Source of the DNA: Thiotrichaceae bacterium
GTDB taxonomy: Bacteria > Pseudomonadota > Gammaproteobacteria > Thiotrichales > Thiotrichaceae
DNA length: 42,777 nt
Assembly: GCA_026989145.1 (NCBI GenBank)
Contig: JALSJU010000123.1
Coordinates: forward strand, 1-42,777
Reading direction: 5' to 3'
Under the pieces are notes generated by a model. It did not search any database and was not told the DNA's origin. It saw only the letters and a list, made by a program, of their open reading frames with translations. This document shows, in pieces, positions 19,002 to 25,391 of the stretch. The stretch's first letter is position 1; every line of letters starts with the position of its first letter. The translations under genes and the position numbers were made by a program.

Positions 19002-19736
19002 CTAAGATTTCAACCACTCAGCAAGATCAGTAGAGCCACCAACATGATCACCGTTAATAAATACTTGTGGCACAGAAGATGAGCCCACCATCGCACGCAA
19101 GCTACGATCGGTATAATCTTCGCCCATCATTAATACTTCGTACTCCATACCAGCATCTTCTAGCATCTGCTTCGCCTTCGCACAAAAAGGACAGCCTTTA
19201 CGCGCCATTACCGTTACACTCGCAGGTACCTCCGCATTCGGTGCAATGTAGTGCAGCATGGTGTCGGCATCAGAGACATCAAACGGGTCGCCTTCAACAT
19301 CGGCTTCGATAAACATTTTATCGACAACACCATCTTTAACAAGCATTGAATAACGCCATGAGCGTTTGCCAAAGCCTAAGTCTGACTTATCGACTAGCAT
19401 CCCCATGCCTTCTGAAAACTCGCCATTACCATCTGGCATAAAGGTAATATCATTTGCGCCTTGGTCTGCCTGCCATTCGTTCATAACAAAGGTATCGTTG
19501 ACCGACATGCAAATAATTTCATCCACGCCATTAGCTTTAAATGCGGGTAGTAATTGATTGTAACGTGGCACATGCGCTGATGAACAGGTTGGCGTAAATG
19601 CGCCCGGTAGTGAAAACACGACGACAGTTTTCCCTTTAAATAGTTGATCCGTTGTTACATCAACCCAGTCGTTATCTTGACGAGTATGAAAAGTAACGTT
19701 TGGAATATTTTGACCTTCTTTGTTCTCAAATGACAT
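19002..19736 (-). CDS. Peroxiredoxin 5-glutaredoxin fusion (hybrid Prx5)
   Basis: This cytoplasmic peroxide reductase carries its own glutaredoxin reductant. Residues 1 to about 165 are a Prx5-type domain with [14 protein letters not shown], where C51 is the peroxidatic cysteine. From about residue 170 there is a glutaredoxin domain with GCPFC (C182, C185), a cis-proline (SVPQVF) and the GGSTDL motif. The 244-residue length agrees with hybrid peroxiredoxins such as that of Haemophilus influenzae. It is divergent from oxyR, with a probable OxyR site between, so peroxide induction is expected. The ATG at 19736 follows an AGGAT site. Confidence 0.95.
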
Positions 19737-19813
19737 GATTTTATCCTGTTTATGATTGATTATTTCGCTTTGTAAATATGCATTAAATATTAAAATACAA
19801 GAGTCTTAGTAGT

Positions 19814-19850
19814 TACTCTTAAAACTATCGCCATAATAGTTAATGATCGT
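19814..19850. promoter_or_regulatory. Probable OxyR binding site
   Basis: CTAT (19825-19828), exactly seven bases, then ATAG (19836-19839) matches the central half of the E. coli OxyR consensus. The flanks keep the T and A expected about 5-7 bases away on each side. It lies between oxyR and the hybrid peroxiredoxin gene. Confidence 0.65.
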
Positions 19851-19930
19851 GGTTTTGTAAAATATATTGTTTTTATTATTACGTTCTATAAAATAGATCA
19901 AATAAGAACCCCCTGAATAGGAAAAAATCT

Positions 19931-20815
19931 ATGCAACTTCCCACCATTAAGCAGTTACGCTATTTTGTTGCACTAGAAAAACACAAACATTTTGGCAATG
20001 CAGCTAAAGCTTGTTTTGTTTCCCAATCTGCATTTAGTGTGGCGATTAAGGAGTTAGAGTCACAACTCGGCGCTCAGCTAGTAGACCGCACCAACAAAAG
20101 TGTTACGATTACTCGCACAGGAAGAGAAATTGCCTCTCACGCACGCCTTTGCTTGCGTGATATTGAACACTTAACTGAGCTTGCCCGTAGTAATCAATCC
20201 CCATTAACCGGCCGTTTAAATCTTGGCATTATTCCCACTATTGCGCCCTTTATGCTCCCCGAGTTATTACCCAGCATTCGCCAAGACTACCCTGATCTAA
20301 AGCTCTACTTACGAGAGGACACCACGCGTGCATTACATCGATTATTGCTCGAAGGCGAGCTTGATATAATTTTAATCGCACTTCCCTACAAATTAAGCAA
20401 TGTAGAAATCAAGCCTTTATTTAAAGATCAGTTTTTTCTTGCTTGTCACGAAAACAGTCAACTGATAAACCCTAAAGATTACAGCTTAGAAAATTTACCC
20501 AAAGAAAGTGTTATTTTATTAGAAGATGGACATTGTTTACGCGGCCATGCCCTCTCTGCATGTAAAATAAGAAACCAAGATACAGTCAGTCGTTTTGCTG
20601 CAAGTAGTTTATTGACCCTAGTAAATATGGTTGATTCAGATATTGGCATTACCTACCTCACTCAAATGGCGCAAAACTCCTCGTTATTAATAAATACCAA
20701 TATAAAAACCTACCCTTTGGATAAAAATAGCTTCCGTGAAATTGGTCTTGCGTGGCGTAAAGGAAGCGCACGTGAAGAAGAGTTTATGATGTTAGCTGAA
20801 CTACTCAAACAATAA
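19931..20815 (+). CDS. oxyR: LysR-type hydrogen peroxide sensor OxyR
   Basis: This is a LysR-family regulator of 294 residues. The N-terminal winged helix (QLRYFVALEKHKHFGNAAKACFVSQ) is followed by a periplasmic-binding-like sensor domain. The redox pair is present: C202 and C211 in EDGHCLRGHALSAC, spaced nine residues apart like E. coli C199 and C208. This supports OxyR rather than another LysR protein. It is transcribed away from the hybrid peroxiredoxin gene, its likely target. An inverted repeat follows the stop and may terminate transcription. Confidence 0.94.
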   Translation: MQLPTIKQLRYFVALEKHKHFGNAAKACFVSQSAFSVAIKELESQLGAQLVDRTNKSVTITRTGREIASHARLCLRDIEHLTELARSNQSPLTGRLNLGIIPTIAPFMLPELLPSIRQDYPDLKLYLREDTTRALHRLLLEGELDIILIALPYKLSNVEIKPLFKDQFFLACHENSQLINPKDYSLENLPKESVILLEDGHCLRGHALSACKIRNQDTVSRFAASSLLTLVNMVDSDIGITYLTQMAQNSSLLINTNIKTYPLDKNSFREIGLAWRKGSAREEEFMMLAELLKQ

Positions 20816-20956: not shown

Positions 20957-21676
20957 ATGTCTTCTGGCGATATGCCAACAATTCAGCCCGCGCTATCGTT
21001 AATTTTTCCTTCACTAGAATCAGTTTCTGAGTGCAAAGAAGATTTAAACCCACACGCTGCATGGCATTTTTTCTCTCATTCCGTGAGCAGAAACCCTACA
21101 GATTTAAAAATGCATACACATAGAATATTTTTTGCGATTAAACATCAAGATGCAGAATATCTGCCTGGAGCCTTGCATGATTTATTTTATATTCTCAAAG
21201 ATTTAGGTCAAAACTTACGACTTCGTTTGTTAAAAGCTTCAGCACCTTATCTAAATGAAGAGGATAAAAGATATTATGCAAAATGGCTGAAAACCGGCGA
21301 ACAAAGCGGCATGGACTATAAGTGGGTAAATGGTTCGGTATTATCACAAGGGCTTTTTGATAGCGACAAACCTCTAATTAGTAAACATTCAGATAAAGGT
21401 TCCGTTAGCTTATCACCCTTAGAGGAAGCACGAGCATGCATGGAGTATGGTCAACTAGAAGTGGCAAAACAAATATTAATGAGCGCATTAGAAATAGAGC
21501 CTGAAAATATGCAACTAAAAGAAGAGCTTGCGCTTGTAACCAGTTATACCGATGAACCACAAAAGAACACACATTTAAAAACTGATAAATTAAAAAATAC
21601 CGGACTTTTTGAACGAATTCAAAATATAAAAACAAATCTATTTATTAAAAAAGATACTAGGCAAATTGACTCATGA
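20957..21676 (+). CDS. TPR/FimV-like protein, first gene of the GTPase-roadblock cluster
   Basis: I do not recognise the whole protein (239 residues). The first 130 residues are predicted helical and soluble, with a conserved-looking aromatic stretch (HAAWHFFSHSVSRNP). Residues about 155-195 (LEEARACMEYGQLEVAKQIL, then ALEIEPENMQLKEELALV) are a tetratricopeptide-like unit resembling the FimV C-terminal repeat. No signal peptide or membrane helix is visible. Its stop overlaps the start of the next gene (ATGA), so the two are translationally coupled. It probably acts as an adaptor for the system encoded downstream, which is inference from context. Confidence 0.75.
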   Translation: MSSGDMPTIQPALSLIFPSLESVSECKEDLNPHAAWHFFSHSVSRNPTDLKMHTHRIFFAIKHQDAEYLPGALHDLFYILKDLGQNLRLRLLKASAPYLNEEDKRYYAKWLKTGEQSGMDYKWVNGSVLSQGLFDSDKPLISKHSDKGSVSLSPLEEARACMEYGQLEVAKQILMSALEIEPENMQLKEELALVTSYTDEPQKNTHLKTDKLKNTGLFERIQNIKTNLFIKKDTRQIDS

Positions 21677-23730
21677 TAAACACTCATAATAATACATCAC
21701 CTATTGATATAGGGATCCTAGAAGTTAGCTCACAAAATAGAGCGGTTTTATCATTTTTTATAGACAGCGTTGGAGCAGACTTTTTTAAAGAGGTTGATAT
21801 TGATCAGGCTTCAGCCTTTATCATCGACTTTGACTTTCCAGGCGCAAAAGAAAGCTGGCAGGAGCTTCAAGCAACAAATAAACCTGCAATAATTTTATCG
21901 ATTAAAGAAGTTGATATGCCGGGAAGCATCTGGGTTCAAAAACCTCTAACAGCAAAAACACTTACTAGCGCAGGTCAAAAATTAAAAGCTCTTATAAGTA
22001 ACAATGCAATTAACCAACCTGTAGAGGAGGCTATTGCCTTAGAAACGCTCTCGGCCCCTCAACCTCTTGACTCTTTAGATATTGAAAAGATTGGTGAGCC
22101 AGCAAGAACAGCATTAGAAACACCCTCCGACTTATTACCTACGTTAGAAAATGAACTTACTGATACTGACGGAACCAATACCAGTAATAAAATTACCGCT
22201 ACGGATGACCTTGATAGCTTATTGTATGATTTACATACTGAACCCCAGTCTAAGGATGAATTCGCAATTGACGCAAACGCTAATGACCGTAATGAGATAT
22301 TAGCTGCTTCTAGCTTTATGCCCGAATTAATTACAGAAAGTGTACCTACTATACAAGCTGAAACGACAAGAAGCGTAACGAAATTAACAACACCCTCAAC
22401 CGACCTTGCCGATACACTCACACTAGAAAAACGCGAAGAATCTACCCCTTTAATGACAGATGTCGCTGACCCTGAAGTTAGTGAACTTGACAGCTTACTA
22501 AGTGATTTAAAGTCAGAGCATCAGACAGATAATGAAATTCCTAATATTGAAATTGATACTATAAAGTCACCTGTAAGCAATGAAGAACTATCAACGCCAC
22601 CACATAACAATAGCGTTGAACAACCTGAAATAACAATTGAAAATCACAAGAATCAAAATGAACTAAGTCAAGCCAAAGAGAAAATAGAGTCCGAGCTATA
22701 TACTGAACCACATGTTGTTGAATCATTTCCTCAAGACACCCAAGCTAACGAGCAAACTACAGCAATTGATGATACCAATATCACTAATGACTTTGATAGC
22801 AATATACCTAGTACCACTGATTTGGAAACTGAGGTCATTGAAGAAACCGTTGAGTCATACGCCGAAGCCACTGACGTCGACTTAGAGGCTATGCTTGATG
22901 AACTCCAGCAAGAAATGGGGAATACGGCAGGGGGTACACCAAATATTAACTCAGAAAGCACTGATGGCAGCACTCAAAAAACCTATCAAGGCACCCAAGC
23001 CCAAGAGCGCTGGGCGTTATTATGTGGCGACAAAAAATTGGTTCGGAGTGCATCCGATATTAAAAAATCTGCATTTACCCTAGAAGAACACTTTTTATCA
23101 AGCCTGCTCAATACACTTAAAGAAGGTAAAGAGACAAAACAAATAAAGCGTATAAAATACGATGACCTACTGATATTCATAGACTATGAAACAGACACGG
23201 TTTACTCTGACCTATCCATTCACTCTGATGAATATGCCCAAATTTGTTTCGAGCCAATAAAGGCTGAATCCATCAAAATTCATGCACTAGATAATAGTGA
23301 AGTTAGAATGCTTCAAAAAACAATTATCAATGAGCCTCATAACGTTTACTCAACTGAAGCATTTATTTGGACCACTAGTTTACTTACATCACGTGGGCGC
23401 TTAGTTAAAAACACAAGTACGAGTAAAGCAATAGGGCTAAAGTCTTGGCCGAACCTTACTCGAGTGGAAAGTTTTCCCCATATGATGAATATCGCTGCGG
23501 TATTCAGTAAAAATCCAGGGAACCTAATGGATGTATCGAAATGGTTAAATATTCCTCAATGCTACGTTTTTGCATTTTATAATGCTGCATTTTTTCTGAA
23601 TATGATCGATCTCGATTCAAACGTAGGTAGTAAAAATAAAAGTAGAAGACTACCGTTTAACTTTGGATCAAAAAAGAAATCTGAAAATAGCGGTATGTTC
23701 TCTCGCTTGCTTAATAAAATCAAAGGTTAA
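21673..23730 (+). CDS. Receiver-like protein with long acidic linker and C-terminal domain
   Basis: The 685-residue protein has three parts. Residues about 9-115 look like a response-regulator receiver fold, with an acidic FIIDFDFPG strand and a KP (VQKPL), but lack the usual acidic pair after the first strand. Residues about 115-430 are Glu/Asp/Thr/Ser-rich and disordered, with three short motifs, LDSLLYDL (180-187), LDSLLSDL (272-279) and LEAMLDEL (404-411). Residues about 435-660 form a globular domain including RWALLCGDKKL and a helical SWPNLTRVESFPHMMNIAAV region. The tail is basic. It overlaps the previous gene by four bases and ends seven bases before the GTPase. Function is unknown. 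Confidence 0.8.
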   Translation: MINTHNNTSPIDIGILEVSSQNRAVLSFFIDSVGADFFKEVDIDQASAFIIDFDFPGAKESWQELQATNKPAIILSIKEVDMPGSIWVQKPLTAKTLTSAGQKLKALISNNAINQPVEEAIALETLSAPQPLDSLDIEKIGEPARTALETPSDLLPTLENELTDTDGTNTSNKITATDDLDSLLYDLHTEPQSKDEFAIDANANDRNEILAASSFMPELITESVPTIQAETTRSVTKLTTPSTDLADTLTLEKREESTPLMTDVADPEVSELDSLLSDLKSEHQTDNEIPNIEIDTIKSPVSNEELSTPPHNNSVEQPEITIENHKNQNELSQAKEKIESELYTEPHVVESFPQDTQANEQTTAIDDTNITNDFDSNIPSTTDLETEVIEETVESYAEATDVDLEAMLDELQQEMGNTAGGTPNINSESTDGSTQKTYQGTQAQERWALLCGDKKLVRSASDIKKSAFTLEEHFLSSLLNTLKEGKETKQIKRIKYDDLLIFIDYETDTVYSDLSIHSDEYAQICFEPIKAESIKIHALDNSEVRMLQKTIINEPHNVYSTEAFIWTTSLLTSRGRLVKNTSTSKAIGLKSWPNLTRVESFPHMMNIAAVFSKNPGNLMDVSKWLNIPQCYVFAFYNAAFFLNMIDLDSNVGSKNKSRRLPFNFGSKKKSENSGMFSRLLNKIKG

Positions 23731-23737
23731 CCGAACA

Positions 23738-24283
23738 ATGTCACTTGTTAATAAAAAAATCATATTCACTGGGCCAGTCGGAGCAGGTAAAACAACTGCA
23801 ATAGAAGTCATGAGTGATGTTCCCATCATTTCTACCAACGAAGAAGCCACTGATATGACCAAAGAGCGTAAACCACAAACAACAGTTGCGATGGACTATG
23901 GGCGTATTAATATCGGTAAAAATGAAAAAATTCACCTTTATGGTACACCTGGGCAAGAACGTTTTAGCTTTATGTGGGATATTCTTACAGAAGGAGCTTT
24001 AGGTCTTATTTTATTATTGGATAACTCTAGGGAGAACCCAAAACAAGATCTTAAGTTTTATACGCAGTCTTTTCAGAGTTTTATTGATAAAGGTGAGTTG
24101 GTCATAGGTGTAACTCGACTCGATGAAATAAAGTCACCCAGCCTTAATGATTACCGTAACTGGGCTAATGAACTTAATTTAAATGCACCTATTTTTACTG
24201 TAGATGCGAGGCAACGATCTGATATTTCATCACTTCTTCAAGCCCTACTTTATTCTATTGACCCTGGGGTGGCAGCAGCATAA
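23738..24283 (+). CDS. Small Ras-like GTPase (COG2229 / CvnD-MglA type)
   Basis: This is a 181-residue single-domain GTPase. The P-loop GPVGAGKT spans residues 12-19. TTVAMDYGRI lies at the switch I position. G3 reads YGTPGQERF (68-76), with Gly in place of the eukaryotic Asp, as in bacterial MglA-like and COG2229 GTPases. G4 is degenerate, GVTRLDE. The start at 23738 gives the normal N-terminus; the upstream in-frame extension overlaps the previous gene. It is sandwiched between the receiver-like protein and two roadblock proteins, which in known systems act as GTPase regulators. The next gene starts one base inside its stop. Confidence 0.92.
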   Translation: MSLVNKKIIFTGPVGAGKTTAIEVMSDVPIISTNEEATDMTKERKPQTTVAMDYGRINIGKNEKIHLYGTPGQERFSFMWDILTEGALGLILLLDNSRENPKQDLKFYTQSFQSFIDKGELVIGVTRLDEIKSPSLNDYRNWANELNLNAPIFTVDARQRSDISSLLQALLYSIDPGVAAA

Positions 24284-24915
24284 TGGACACATTCACACTC
24301 AATGATGGACTTTTCATTAACGTAACACCGCGTGGTGTTTACTACGCCATACAAAGTAATCATCAGGATAAATCAAGAGATCTATTACAGAAGTTATTGC
24401 AGTATGAAGAAACGCCTTCGTTAACAGCAGAAACACTTAACGAAATATCATCAGCGAATGCCGATGACACAATGAACCTACTGCATAATATGCAAAAAAC
24501 AAAATTAATTTCTGGTCACACCCAGCCTGAGACCATCAAACAAGGAGCTTTAGAAGATTTATTGCCTGATTTACTAAAAAACCTTTCAGAGTCAGGCAAA
24601 GTATTACTCGCGGAAAAAAGTGGCTTATATCTTGGAGCTTCAGGTTTTCCACATGAAGCCGCAGAAGAGTTAGCGGCTATTAGTGCAAGCCTTTCGGAAG
24701 TTTATCAACGCCATAAAGGTCTACTCCAAGGAAATTTAGGCTTTAGCCAACATGCTTGGGGATTAATTGACGCAGCAGGAAATAGTGAGGTCGGCTTTTG
24801 GCCTTTATATGTGGGCGACAATCAATTCACCTTAGTAATTGAGGGCTTACCACAACTAAATAGTCCGTCGTTTAAACATTTAATCTGGGTATTAATCAAA
24901 AGATATGGCGAATAA
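24283..24915 (+). CDS. Divergent roadblock/LC7-like protein
   Basis: This is a 210-residue protein. Residues about 1-90 form a small, mostly helical N-terminal domain I do not recognise. From about residue 90 the pattern LPDLLKNLSESGKVLLAEKS, then GLYLGASGFPHEAAEELAAI, followed by beta-rich sequence and a C-terminal helix resembles a diverged roadblock/LC7 fold. Its start codon overlaps the GTPase stop by one base, so the pair is coupled. It may bind the GTPase as an alternative or second regulator beside the canonical roadblock gene that follows. The assignment is based on pattern only. Confidence 0.75.
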   Translation: MDTFTLNDGLFINVTPRGVYYAIQSNHQDKSRDLLQKLLQYEETPSLTAETLNEISSANADDTMNLLHNMQKTKLISGHTQPETIKQGALEDLLPDLLKNLSESGKVLLAEKSGLYLGASGFPHEAAEELAAISASLSEVYQRHKGLLQGNLGFSQHAWGLIDAAGNSEVGFWPLYVGDNQFTLVIEGLPQLNSPSFKHLIWVLIKRYGE

Positions 24916-25028
24916 ACAAGCCTTTCATCGGCTTATTCTAACCAATAAACTGAGACTCATTTATAATCATCAAAGTAGCAAAAAGTTACTTAATAACAAG
25001 AAAAACACTAATTAAAAGGGGAACCTAA

Positions 25029-25391
25029 ATGCGTTCTGAAATGATTAACTCAATATTAAGCGATCTTAACGGATCAAGTGCCGATATTGAAGCTTCGGCC
25101 GTTCTATCAACAGACGGCCTAATGATGGACTCTCTATTGCCAGCAGGCATGGATGAAGACCGTGTTGGTGCAATGAGTGCAGCGATGCTTTCACTTGGTG
25201 ACCGTACCTCTGTGGAATTAGAAAGGGGTAAGTTAGAGCAAGTACTCATCAAAGGCGACAAAGGATTTATCCTAATGACCTATGCTGGCACTGATGCCGT
25301 AGTAACGGTGCTAACAAAACCTGAAGCACGTCTAGGGCTTATTTTTCTTGATGTAAAACGCGCTGCTGACGGTATTGCAAAAATACTTTAA
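25029..25391 (+). CDS. Roadblock/LC7 domain protein (MglB/CvnB-like)
   Basis: This is a 120-residue single roadblock/LC7 domain of the COG2018 type. It has an alternating helix and strand pattern with ASAVLSTDGLMMDSLLP, ALS-type dimer helix (MSAAMLSLGDRTSVELERG) and VLIKGDKGFILMTYAG. In MglB such homodimers are the GAP for the MglA GTPase, and in Streptomyces conservons the equivalent is CvnB. It has its own strong AAAGGGGA ribosome site and is 113 bp from the previous gene. A weak AAGCC/GGCTT hairpin lies in that gap, so it may be expressed more strongly than the rest. Confidence 0.92.
   Translation: MRSEMINSILSDLNGSSADIEASAVLSTDGLMMDSLLPAGMDEDRVGAMSAAMLSLGDRTSVELERGKLEQVLIKGDKGFILMTYAGTDAVVTVLTKPEARLGLIFLDVKRAADGIAKIL

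Follow-up and report, generated by a model that had tools for sequence, protein, structure and literature searches.

The closest described relatives of the gene set examined here are the Group 3 MglA systems of beta- and gammaproteobacteria, defined in the 2014 survey of Wuichet and Sogaard-Andersen (PMC4316618; this and the other papers cited are drawn on in excerpt), which consist of a protein with receiver-like and winged-helix folds, a small GTPase and one or two roadblock proteins. Their GTPases carry a GTPGQ motif, a G4 motif that often lacks lysine and a DAR motif, their MglB homologues carry an Asp-Gly pair, and the authors, at a time when most GTPases of the survey were functionally uncharacterised, proposed a role in transcription from the receiver-like and winged-helix folds (PMC4316618). 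In the literature that we searched, the only experimental work on Group 3 concerned a point mutant of mglB in the bee symbiont Snodgrassella; there, when an evolved isolate was compared with a background mutant, the change G78R in an orphan mglB affected how colonies spread on 0.5% agar (though not on 1.5%) as well as competition in bees, and the authors cite older transposon data by which the three mglB genes of the symbiont aid colonisation (PMC11112851). In Myxococcus, MglA-GTP works on type IV pili through the tetratricopeptide repeat (TPR) protein SgmX (PMC7519303), and RomR joins a receiver domain to a conserved C-terminus through an unstructured linker (PMC3441718). Here we describe a five-gene module in a stretch of 42,777 nucleotides from a Thiotrichaceae bacterium (GenBank assembly GCA_026989145.1, contig JALSJU010000123.1, positions 1 to 42,777; hereafter the window). 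Our preferred reading, on which we are nearly evenly divided, is that the module is a variant of Group 3 MglA and acts as a membrane-bound switch that links sensing with the organisation of the pole, probably with type IV pili as the target. The original prediction, made from the letters of the window, had suggested that the biology of the system might be undescribed; this is not supported, since Group 3 MglA was described in 2014 (PMC4316618) and work on an mglB mutant of Group 3 followed in 2024 (PMC11112851).

The module comprises five plus-strand genes at 20957-25391, referred to as P1 to P5 (P0001-P0005) in gene order along that strand:

20957..21676, plus strand: P1, TPR protein of 239 residues, whose C-terminal half holds a FimV-type TPR (about 21407-21565)
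21673..23730, plus strand: P2, protein of 685 residues made up of receiver-like domain, acidic linker, winged helix and C-terminal amphipathic helix; the Group 3 'protein of unknown function'
21673..22017, plus strand: receiver-like domain of P2, with D52, D54 and K90-P91 conserved and the acidic pair not
22018..22962, plus strand: acidic linker of P2, with 73 Asp or Glu against 14 Lys or Arg in 315 residues
22996..23622, plus strand: conserved C-terminal domain of P2, modelled with a winged helix at its end
23695..23724, plus strand: basic amphipathic C-terminal helix of P2, putatively membrane-targeting (or roadblock-binding)
23738..24283, plus strand: P3, MglA-family small GTPase of 181 residues, with GTPGQ in G3, TT in G2, TRxD in G4 and DAR in G5
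24283..24915, plus strand: P4, winged helix and divergent roadblock, 210 residues, without the Asp-Gly pair of P5
about 24283-24522, plus strand: winged helix of P4, assigned by the order of modelled elements
about 24544-24909, plus strand: roadblock of P4
25029..25391, plus strand: P5, canonical MglB-type roadblock of 120 residues, with the invariant Asp-Gly pair

From P1 to P5, successive genes overlap by 4 bases, lie 7 bases apart, overlap by 1 base and lie 113 bases apart, which agrees with the prediction of five neighbouring genes of which the first four overlap or nearly touch; the start of P3 is taken at 23738, the mechanical open reading frame (ORF) beginning at an earlier TTG, 23663. 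P3, predicted to be a small GTPase with a GTPGQ motif, matches the P-loop GTPase family PF03029 at 45.8 bits (cut-off 27), and over 116 GTPases, second copies included, that motif is nearly invariant (G69 in 116/116, T70 in 114/116, P71 in 115/116, G72 and Q73 in 116/116 each). T48 and T49 of G2, where threonine stands in place of the Arg finger of Group 1, are found in all 116, the G4 site holds lysine in 5/116 only, and the DAR of G5 is kept (D156 in 116/116, A157 in 110/116, R158 in 116/116). P5, expected to be a canonical roadblock, is recognised as Robl_LC7 at 50.4 bits (cut-off 23), with its Asp-Gly pair in 107/107 sequences. Its nearest sequences in the PDB are Asgard archaeal roadblocks (7f8m, E 8.4e-26; 9jue, E 3.8e-17), followed by the conservon protein cvnB5 (E 3.7e-11), far ahead of Myxococcus MglB (E 0.046). 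P4, expected to be a divergent roadblock, has a Robl_LC7 match under the cut-off (16.0 bits, E 0.0098), and its model, built from 65 sequences at a mean predicted local distance difference test score (pLDDT) of 95.2, shows the fold in residues 88-209 (3kye, Z 11.1 over 106 residues at 3.0 A; Myxococcus MglB, Z 9.9). Residues 1-80 are winged-helix-like by the order of modelled elements, not by a separate structural match, and the site aligned to the Asp of the P5 pair holds Asp in 2/65 rows, the following Gly being invariant. With GTPGQ, the G2 threonines, scarce G4 lysine, DAR, a P2-like neighbour and MglB homologues, the locus has the features of Group 3. By sequence, the core is of a known kind, since a receiver-like and winged-helix protein with a GTPase and roadblocks was already described as Group 3 MglA in 2014; what we did not find mentioned in the excerpts of the papers is the fifth core gene and the further features set out below.

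The five genes form a conserved unit. Relatives were followed in 80 named loci, the best 80 of 181 confirmed P4 matches, chosen for P4 and closeness, and in 40 wider stretches, 33 fetched for the module and the other seven (L092-L098) for a second GTPase copy; several of the named loci come from genomes that are also in other genome sets counted here. Within the same order the GTPase occurs in 60/63 genomes (46/46 among the best assemblies), and the genes for P2, the GTPase, P4 and P5 stand together in 29/30 loci, the contig of the thirtieth stopping inside the GTPase. All five genes are present in 25/33 module loci of the wider stretches, spanning 15 families, and in 70/80 named loci; the concern that they might not be neighbours in related genomes was not borne out, and the idea of a single module stands. 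Among the eight incomplete loci of the wider stretches, L066 begins at a contig end and the remaining seven have no GTPase in the stretch, two of these (L080, L081) coming from contigs that end just past P4. Of the ten named loci without the full set, nine start at a contig end upstream, L149 being the exception; in L121, P5 is missing as well, even though the sequence runs on downstream. Module versions with no GTPase in the stretch were seen in L073, L075, L079 and L081-L083, with a gene of the protoglobin cluster in L073 and L081-L083. Across the sampled class, P4 was found in 26/274 genomes (E 1e-5) and the GTPase in 45/274 (E 1e-20); three P4-bearing genomes (G162, G207, G259) gave no Group 3 GTPase at E 1e-20. 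The host genome of the window, of Cocleimonas type within the Thiotrichaceae (2.63 Mb, 97.7% complete), has a single detected GTPase copy (E 0.001) and a single P5-type roadblock (E 0.01). Its closest named relative by P4 is a Thiotrichaceae metagenome-assembled genome (MAG) at 94% identity, and the next six, Thiotrichaceae MAGs and Cocleimonas records including C. flava, share 63-66%.

The Pfam scan of P2 returned a single chance-level match (E 0.053), and the receiver-like nature that had been predicted is supported, though weakly by sequence (best response regulator, E 0.0019): over 81 rows of the domain D52 is kept in 90%, D54 in 100%, K90 in 98% and P91 in 100%, and the acidic pair is not kept, position 19 being Asp in 41% and Ser in 37%. 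With D52 and K90 largely kept and the acidic pair not, P2 may or may not be an ordinary phosphorylated response regulator. The model of the C-terminal part (pLDDT 87) contains a winged helix, whose best structural match has a borderline Z of 8.1 (71 residues, 2.6 A), and a separate terminal helix follows after a low-confidence linker. The top ranks for the C-terminal domain (22996-23622) are seven entries of Npr2/Nprl2, from the Rag GTPase regulators SEA/GATOR1, at Z 6.8-8.1; we do not claim an evolutionary tie to these eukaryotic proteins, as the Foldseek E of 0.04 and Z of 7-8.1 lie within background. In 110 distinct tails of related proteins (identical and X-containing tails excluded), the median hydrophobic moment is 0.72, against 0.51 for their own shuffles and 0.46 for 820 other ORF tails, the median net charge is +5 against 0 in those 820, and a motif written after viewing the tails fits 91/110 against 9/820. 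The tail presumably resembles the membrane-targeting helix of MinD. Because the C-terminus is a conserved basic amphipathic helix, P2 looks likelier to be a membrane- or pole-bound scaffold than a transcription factor.

Two other readings of P2 have to be weighed here. In the first, the switch would still serve polarity, and the terminal helix would bind a roadblock instead of anchoring the protein in the membrane; the C-terminal helix of RomR alone does bind the roadblock MglC, with nanomolar affinity (PMC12719032), though RomR-C is rich in glutamate with an invariant Trp and Pro (PMC3441718) and the tails of P2 are basic at a median of +5, which leaves this reading somewhat unlikely in our estimate. 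In the second, which we consider improbable, the module would control transcription, with P2 acting as a DNA-binding protein akin to a response regulator, under the control of the GTPase. This is what the 2014 authors proposed for Group 3 (PMC4316618), and it draws on the winged helix in the model of the C-terminal domain and on the many lower structural matches that are DNA-binding proteins; it sits poorly with the conserved basic amphipathic helix at the end of P2, with top winged-helix matches that belong to GTPase-regulating complexes (Npr2/Nprl2, at a borderline Z of 7-8.1), and with the winged helix that also precedes the roadblock of P4.

The membrane-bound polarity switch that we prefer would gain its link to the pole from P1. 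A Pfam scan gave TPR matches under threshold only and no FimV_core or FimV_Cterm match at E 1; the prediction of a TPR/FimV-like protein is supported as a TPR partner related to FimV, and we rejected P1 as a FimV protein and retained it as one that shares the TPR. FimV and HubP proteins are marked by a LysM-like core, a transmembrane region and a C-terminal FimV TPR (PMC12918733). Searched against the PDB, a P1 profile of 50 members matched TPR proteins, FimV among them at E 0.0045, and in the sampled class it matched 170/274 genomes; besides full-length P1, the matches listed fall mainly on the TPR segment (about positions 150-235) within long frames, mostly of 600-1200 residues. We take these frames for FimV proteins on the example of the window's genome, whose own FimV ORF of 918 residues is matched by the profile and carries the FimV core in the same frame. 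The same genome holds, on contig C37, a second P1 (217 residues) followed after 8 bases by a gene of 418 residues that passes the FimV_core cut-off. Just upstream at that paralogous locus (L246, G000:C37, 6584-8502 and 9355-11121) lie, by reading, a CRP-like regulator and a protein-kinase-like gene. A FimV-family gene stands downstream of the module in 20/80 named loci; in eight of these it lies no more than 3 bases past the end of the module or overlaps it by a few bases, and 18 of the 20 records bear the name Thiothrix, Leucothrix or Thiotrichaceae. Bactofilin genes occur near the module in 21/80, upstream of P1 in 19 of the 21, and the one bactofilin member checked passed PF04519. This Group 3 subset regularly includes a TPR protein, and the TPR is homologous to that of the polar hub FimV.

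Sensor genes and fusions in relatives suggest what the switch may read. In 46/80 named loci the module is accompanied by both a PAS gene and a PhnD-like gene (PF12974), in one by PhnD alone, and in 12/80 by protoglobin. In the window the module has no PAS or PhnD neighbour from these families, and nothing beyond the core five is adjacent as a module member; L103, a MAG of the window's genus, has PAS and PhnD genes by the module, and elsewhere in the host genome a frame of 439 residues has a weak PF12974 match at 25.6 bits (28.2 with its neighbours; cut-off 27). The GTPase is fused to a Ser/Thr kinase in L064 and L071 (PF00069, E 8.4e-38 and 3.1e-41), and P1 is fused to P4 in L080. By reading, second GTPase copies look fused to a roadblock-like region (L093, L095, L096) or to a receiver-like N-terminus (L097). 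An apparent fusion of P2 and the GTPase in L128 was not counted, as the record has N bases and the fusion may be a sequence error. Group 3 modules stand beside a truncated globin in L092 and L221 (in L092 with a 2Fe-2S domain, the globin itself being under the cut-off), and a fusion of an ABC ATPase and a dual-specificity phosphatase lies near both modules, Pfam-checked in L221 only. That the module is a redox or oxygen signalling switch with no part in polarity, its FimV contacts being accidents of Thiotrichaceae neighbourhoods, is unlikely: the frequent PAS, PhnD-like and protoglobin genes and the truncated globins adjoining other Group 3 modules speak for it, and the TPR homology of P1 and FimV, the separate P1-FimV gene pair in the host genome and the effect of mglB on colony spreading in Snodgrassella (PMC11112851) speak against it.

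We would assemble the preferred polarity switch as follows, with GAP, adaptor, anchoring, FimV-binding and pilus-output steps that we infer by analogy. P5 would be the GTPase-activating protein (GAP) of P3, and P4 a second, adaptor-like roadblock, as MglC is, this being the weakest of the assignments. P2 would serve as a scaffold in the manner of RomR, with its C-terminal helix tethering it to the membrane or pole and its winged helix making contacts with other proteins. P1 would tie the switch to the FimV pole hub as an effector or localiser, as SgmX does for MglA in Myxococcus. In relatives, input could come from PAS or protoglobin redox or oxygen sensors, from the PhnD-like binding protein or from a fused Ser/Thr kinase, and the output would probably be the organisation of the pole, with type IV pili the likeliest target. 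By analogy with Myxococcus, P3 would take the place of MglA, P5 of MglB, P4 of MglC, P2 of RomR, and P1 of SgmX or a hub adaptor.

A number of observations weigh against this polarity switch. The membrane helix of P2 is a prediction and its motif is post hoc. A non-GAP role for P4 is only a guess because, while its pair site mostly lacks Asp, an acidic residue stands two positions before it in 63/65 rows, and a shifted Asp is noted in Group 1 MglB proteins, which are GAPs (PMC4316618). The four pilT-family matches over the cut-off in the host genome say little, because pilus genes are common. The FimV-family calls rest, like the bactofilin calls, on custom profiles; the single FimV member checked fell short of the FimV_core cut-off (40.0 bits against 43.45) and passed that of FimV_Cterm (38.1 bits). 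A single inherited arrangement may account for the FimV and bactofilin neighbours, because they are almost confined to Thiotrichaceae-type records and, in the seven loci closest to the window (L099-L105), none adjoins the module. L073 and L075 have the order P1-P2-P4 with the GTPase absent, and their genomes hold none at E 1e-20. P4 was not found in 22 of the 45 GTPase-positive genomes of the class. Twenty GTPase loci from these genomes were fetched (G275 and G317 left out); a P2-like gene is present in 16/20 and a P5-like gene in 18/20, and P1 or P4 in 0/20 (all at E 0.01), several showing by reading a second roadblock-like gene, small at about 120-140 residues. P1 and the winged-helix P4 are therefore no general feature of Group 3 but set apart a subset, and the window falls within it.

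Flanking the module (window 19002-20815) we read a peroxiredoxin-glutaredoxin-like gene and a divergent LysR-like regulator, and ORF lengths and strands suggest the same flanking order in Cocleimonas flava (L084).

If the polarity switch holds, the module would be a gammaproteobacterial counterpart of the MglA-RomR-MglB-MglC-SgmX circuit of Myxococcus, gathered in one operon. The extra parts (TPR partner, winged-helix roadblock, amphipathic tail, sensors, kinase fusions) turn an orphan cluster into a testable circuit, and that circuit would connect two polarity fields, that of MglA switches and that of FimV/HubP hubs. Among the 15 papers listed of 24 that matched, none named both MglA and FimV, and two named both MglA and HubP, the second of them once each. 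We entertain, with considerable doubt, the broader possibility that many gammaproteobacteria run such a membrane-bound Ras-like polarity switch, joined to the FimV hub through P1 and fed by redox, oxygen or kinase input. Our searches of the literature, mostly open and in some queries weak on the spelling of roadblock/LC7, returned no further published account of the extra features.

Set beside the described systems, the module is nearest to Group 3 MglA, with which it shares the layout of P2 (receiver-like N-terminus, variable linker, winged-helix-like C-terminus), the GTPase, the MglB homologues and the motifs. It differs in the extra FimV-related TPR gene, the winged helix on the second roadblock, the conserved amphipathic tail of P2 and the sensor genes often found downstream in relatives, none of which we found mentioned in the excerpts of the 2014 survey (PMC4316618). 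The Snodgrassella mgl locus likewise has a Group 3 mglA, with several mglB genes of which the mutated one is an orphan, and the excerpts of that account make no mention that we found of a TPR gene or winged-helix roadblock there (PMC11112851). Actinobacterial conservons (Group 2 MglA) share a GTPase with GTPGQ and DAR, a roadblock and a conserved operon; they differ in having a histidine kinase and a CvnC-type partner, which is a DUF742 protein, and in a G4 of NxFD where ours is TRxD. We rejected conservon membership, as no histidine kinase or DUF742 Pfam match was found among the five proteins, in keeping with the predicted likeness to MglA/MglB and not to conservons. The MglA-MglB-MglC-RomR system of Myxococcus xanthus, with SgmX, has in common a GTPase, a GAP roadblock and a second roadblock, a receiver protein with a long linker and a TPR protein, which in Myxococcus is an effector that acts on type IV pili. 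It differs in that its GTPase belongs to Group 1, with mglA not near its partner genes, and P3 lacks the intrinsic G2 Arg finger and TVPGQ that mark this group in Myxococcus and Thermus. P2 likewise does not fit the glutamate-rich C-terminal region of RomR with its invariant Trp and Pro, the tails of P2 being basic.

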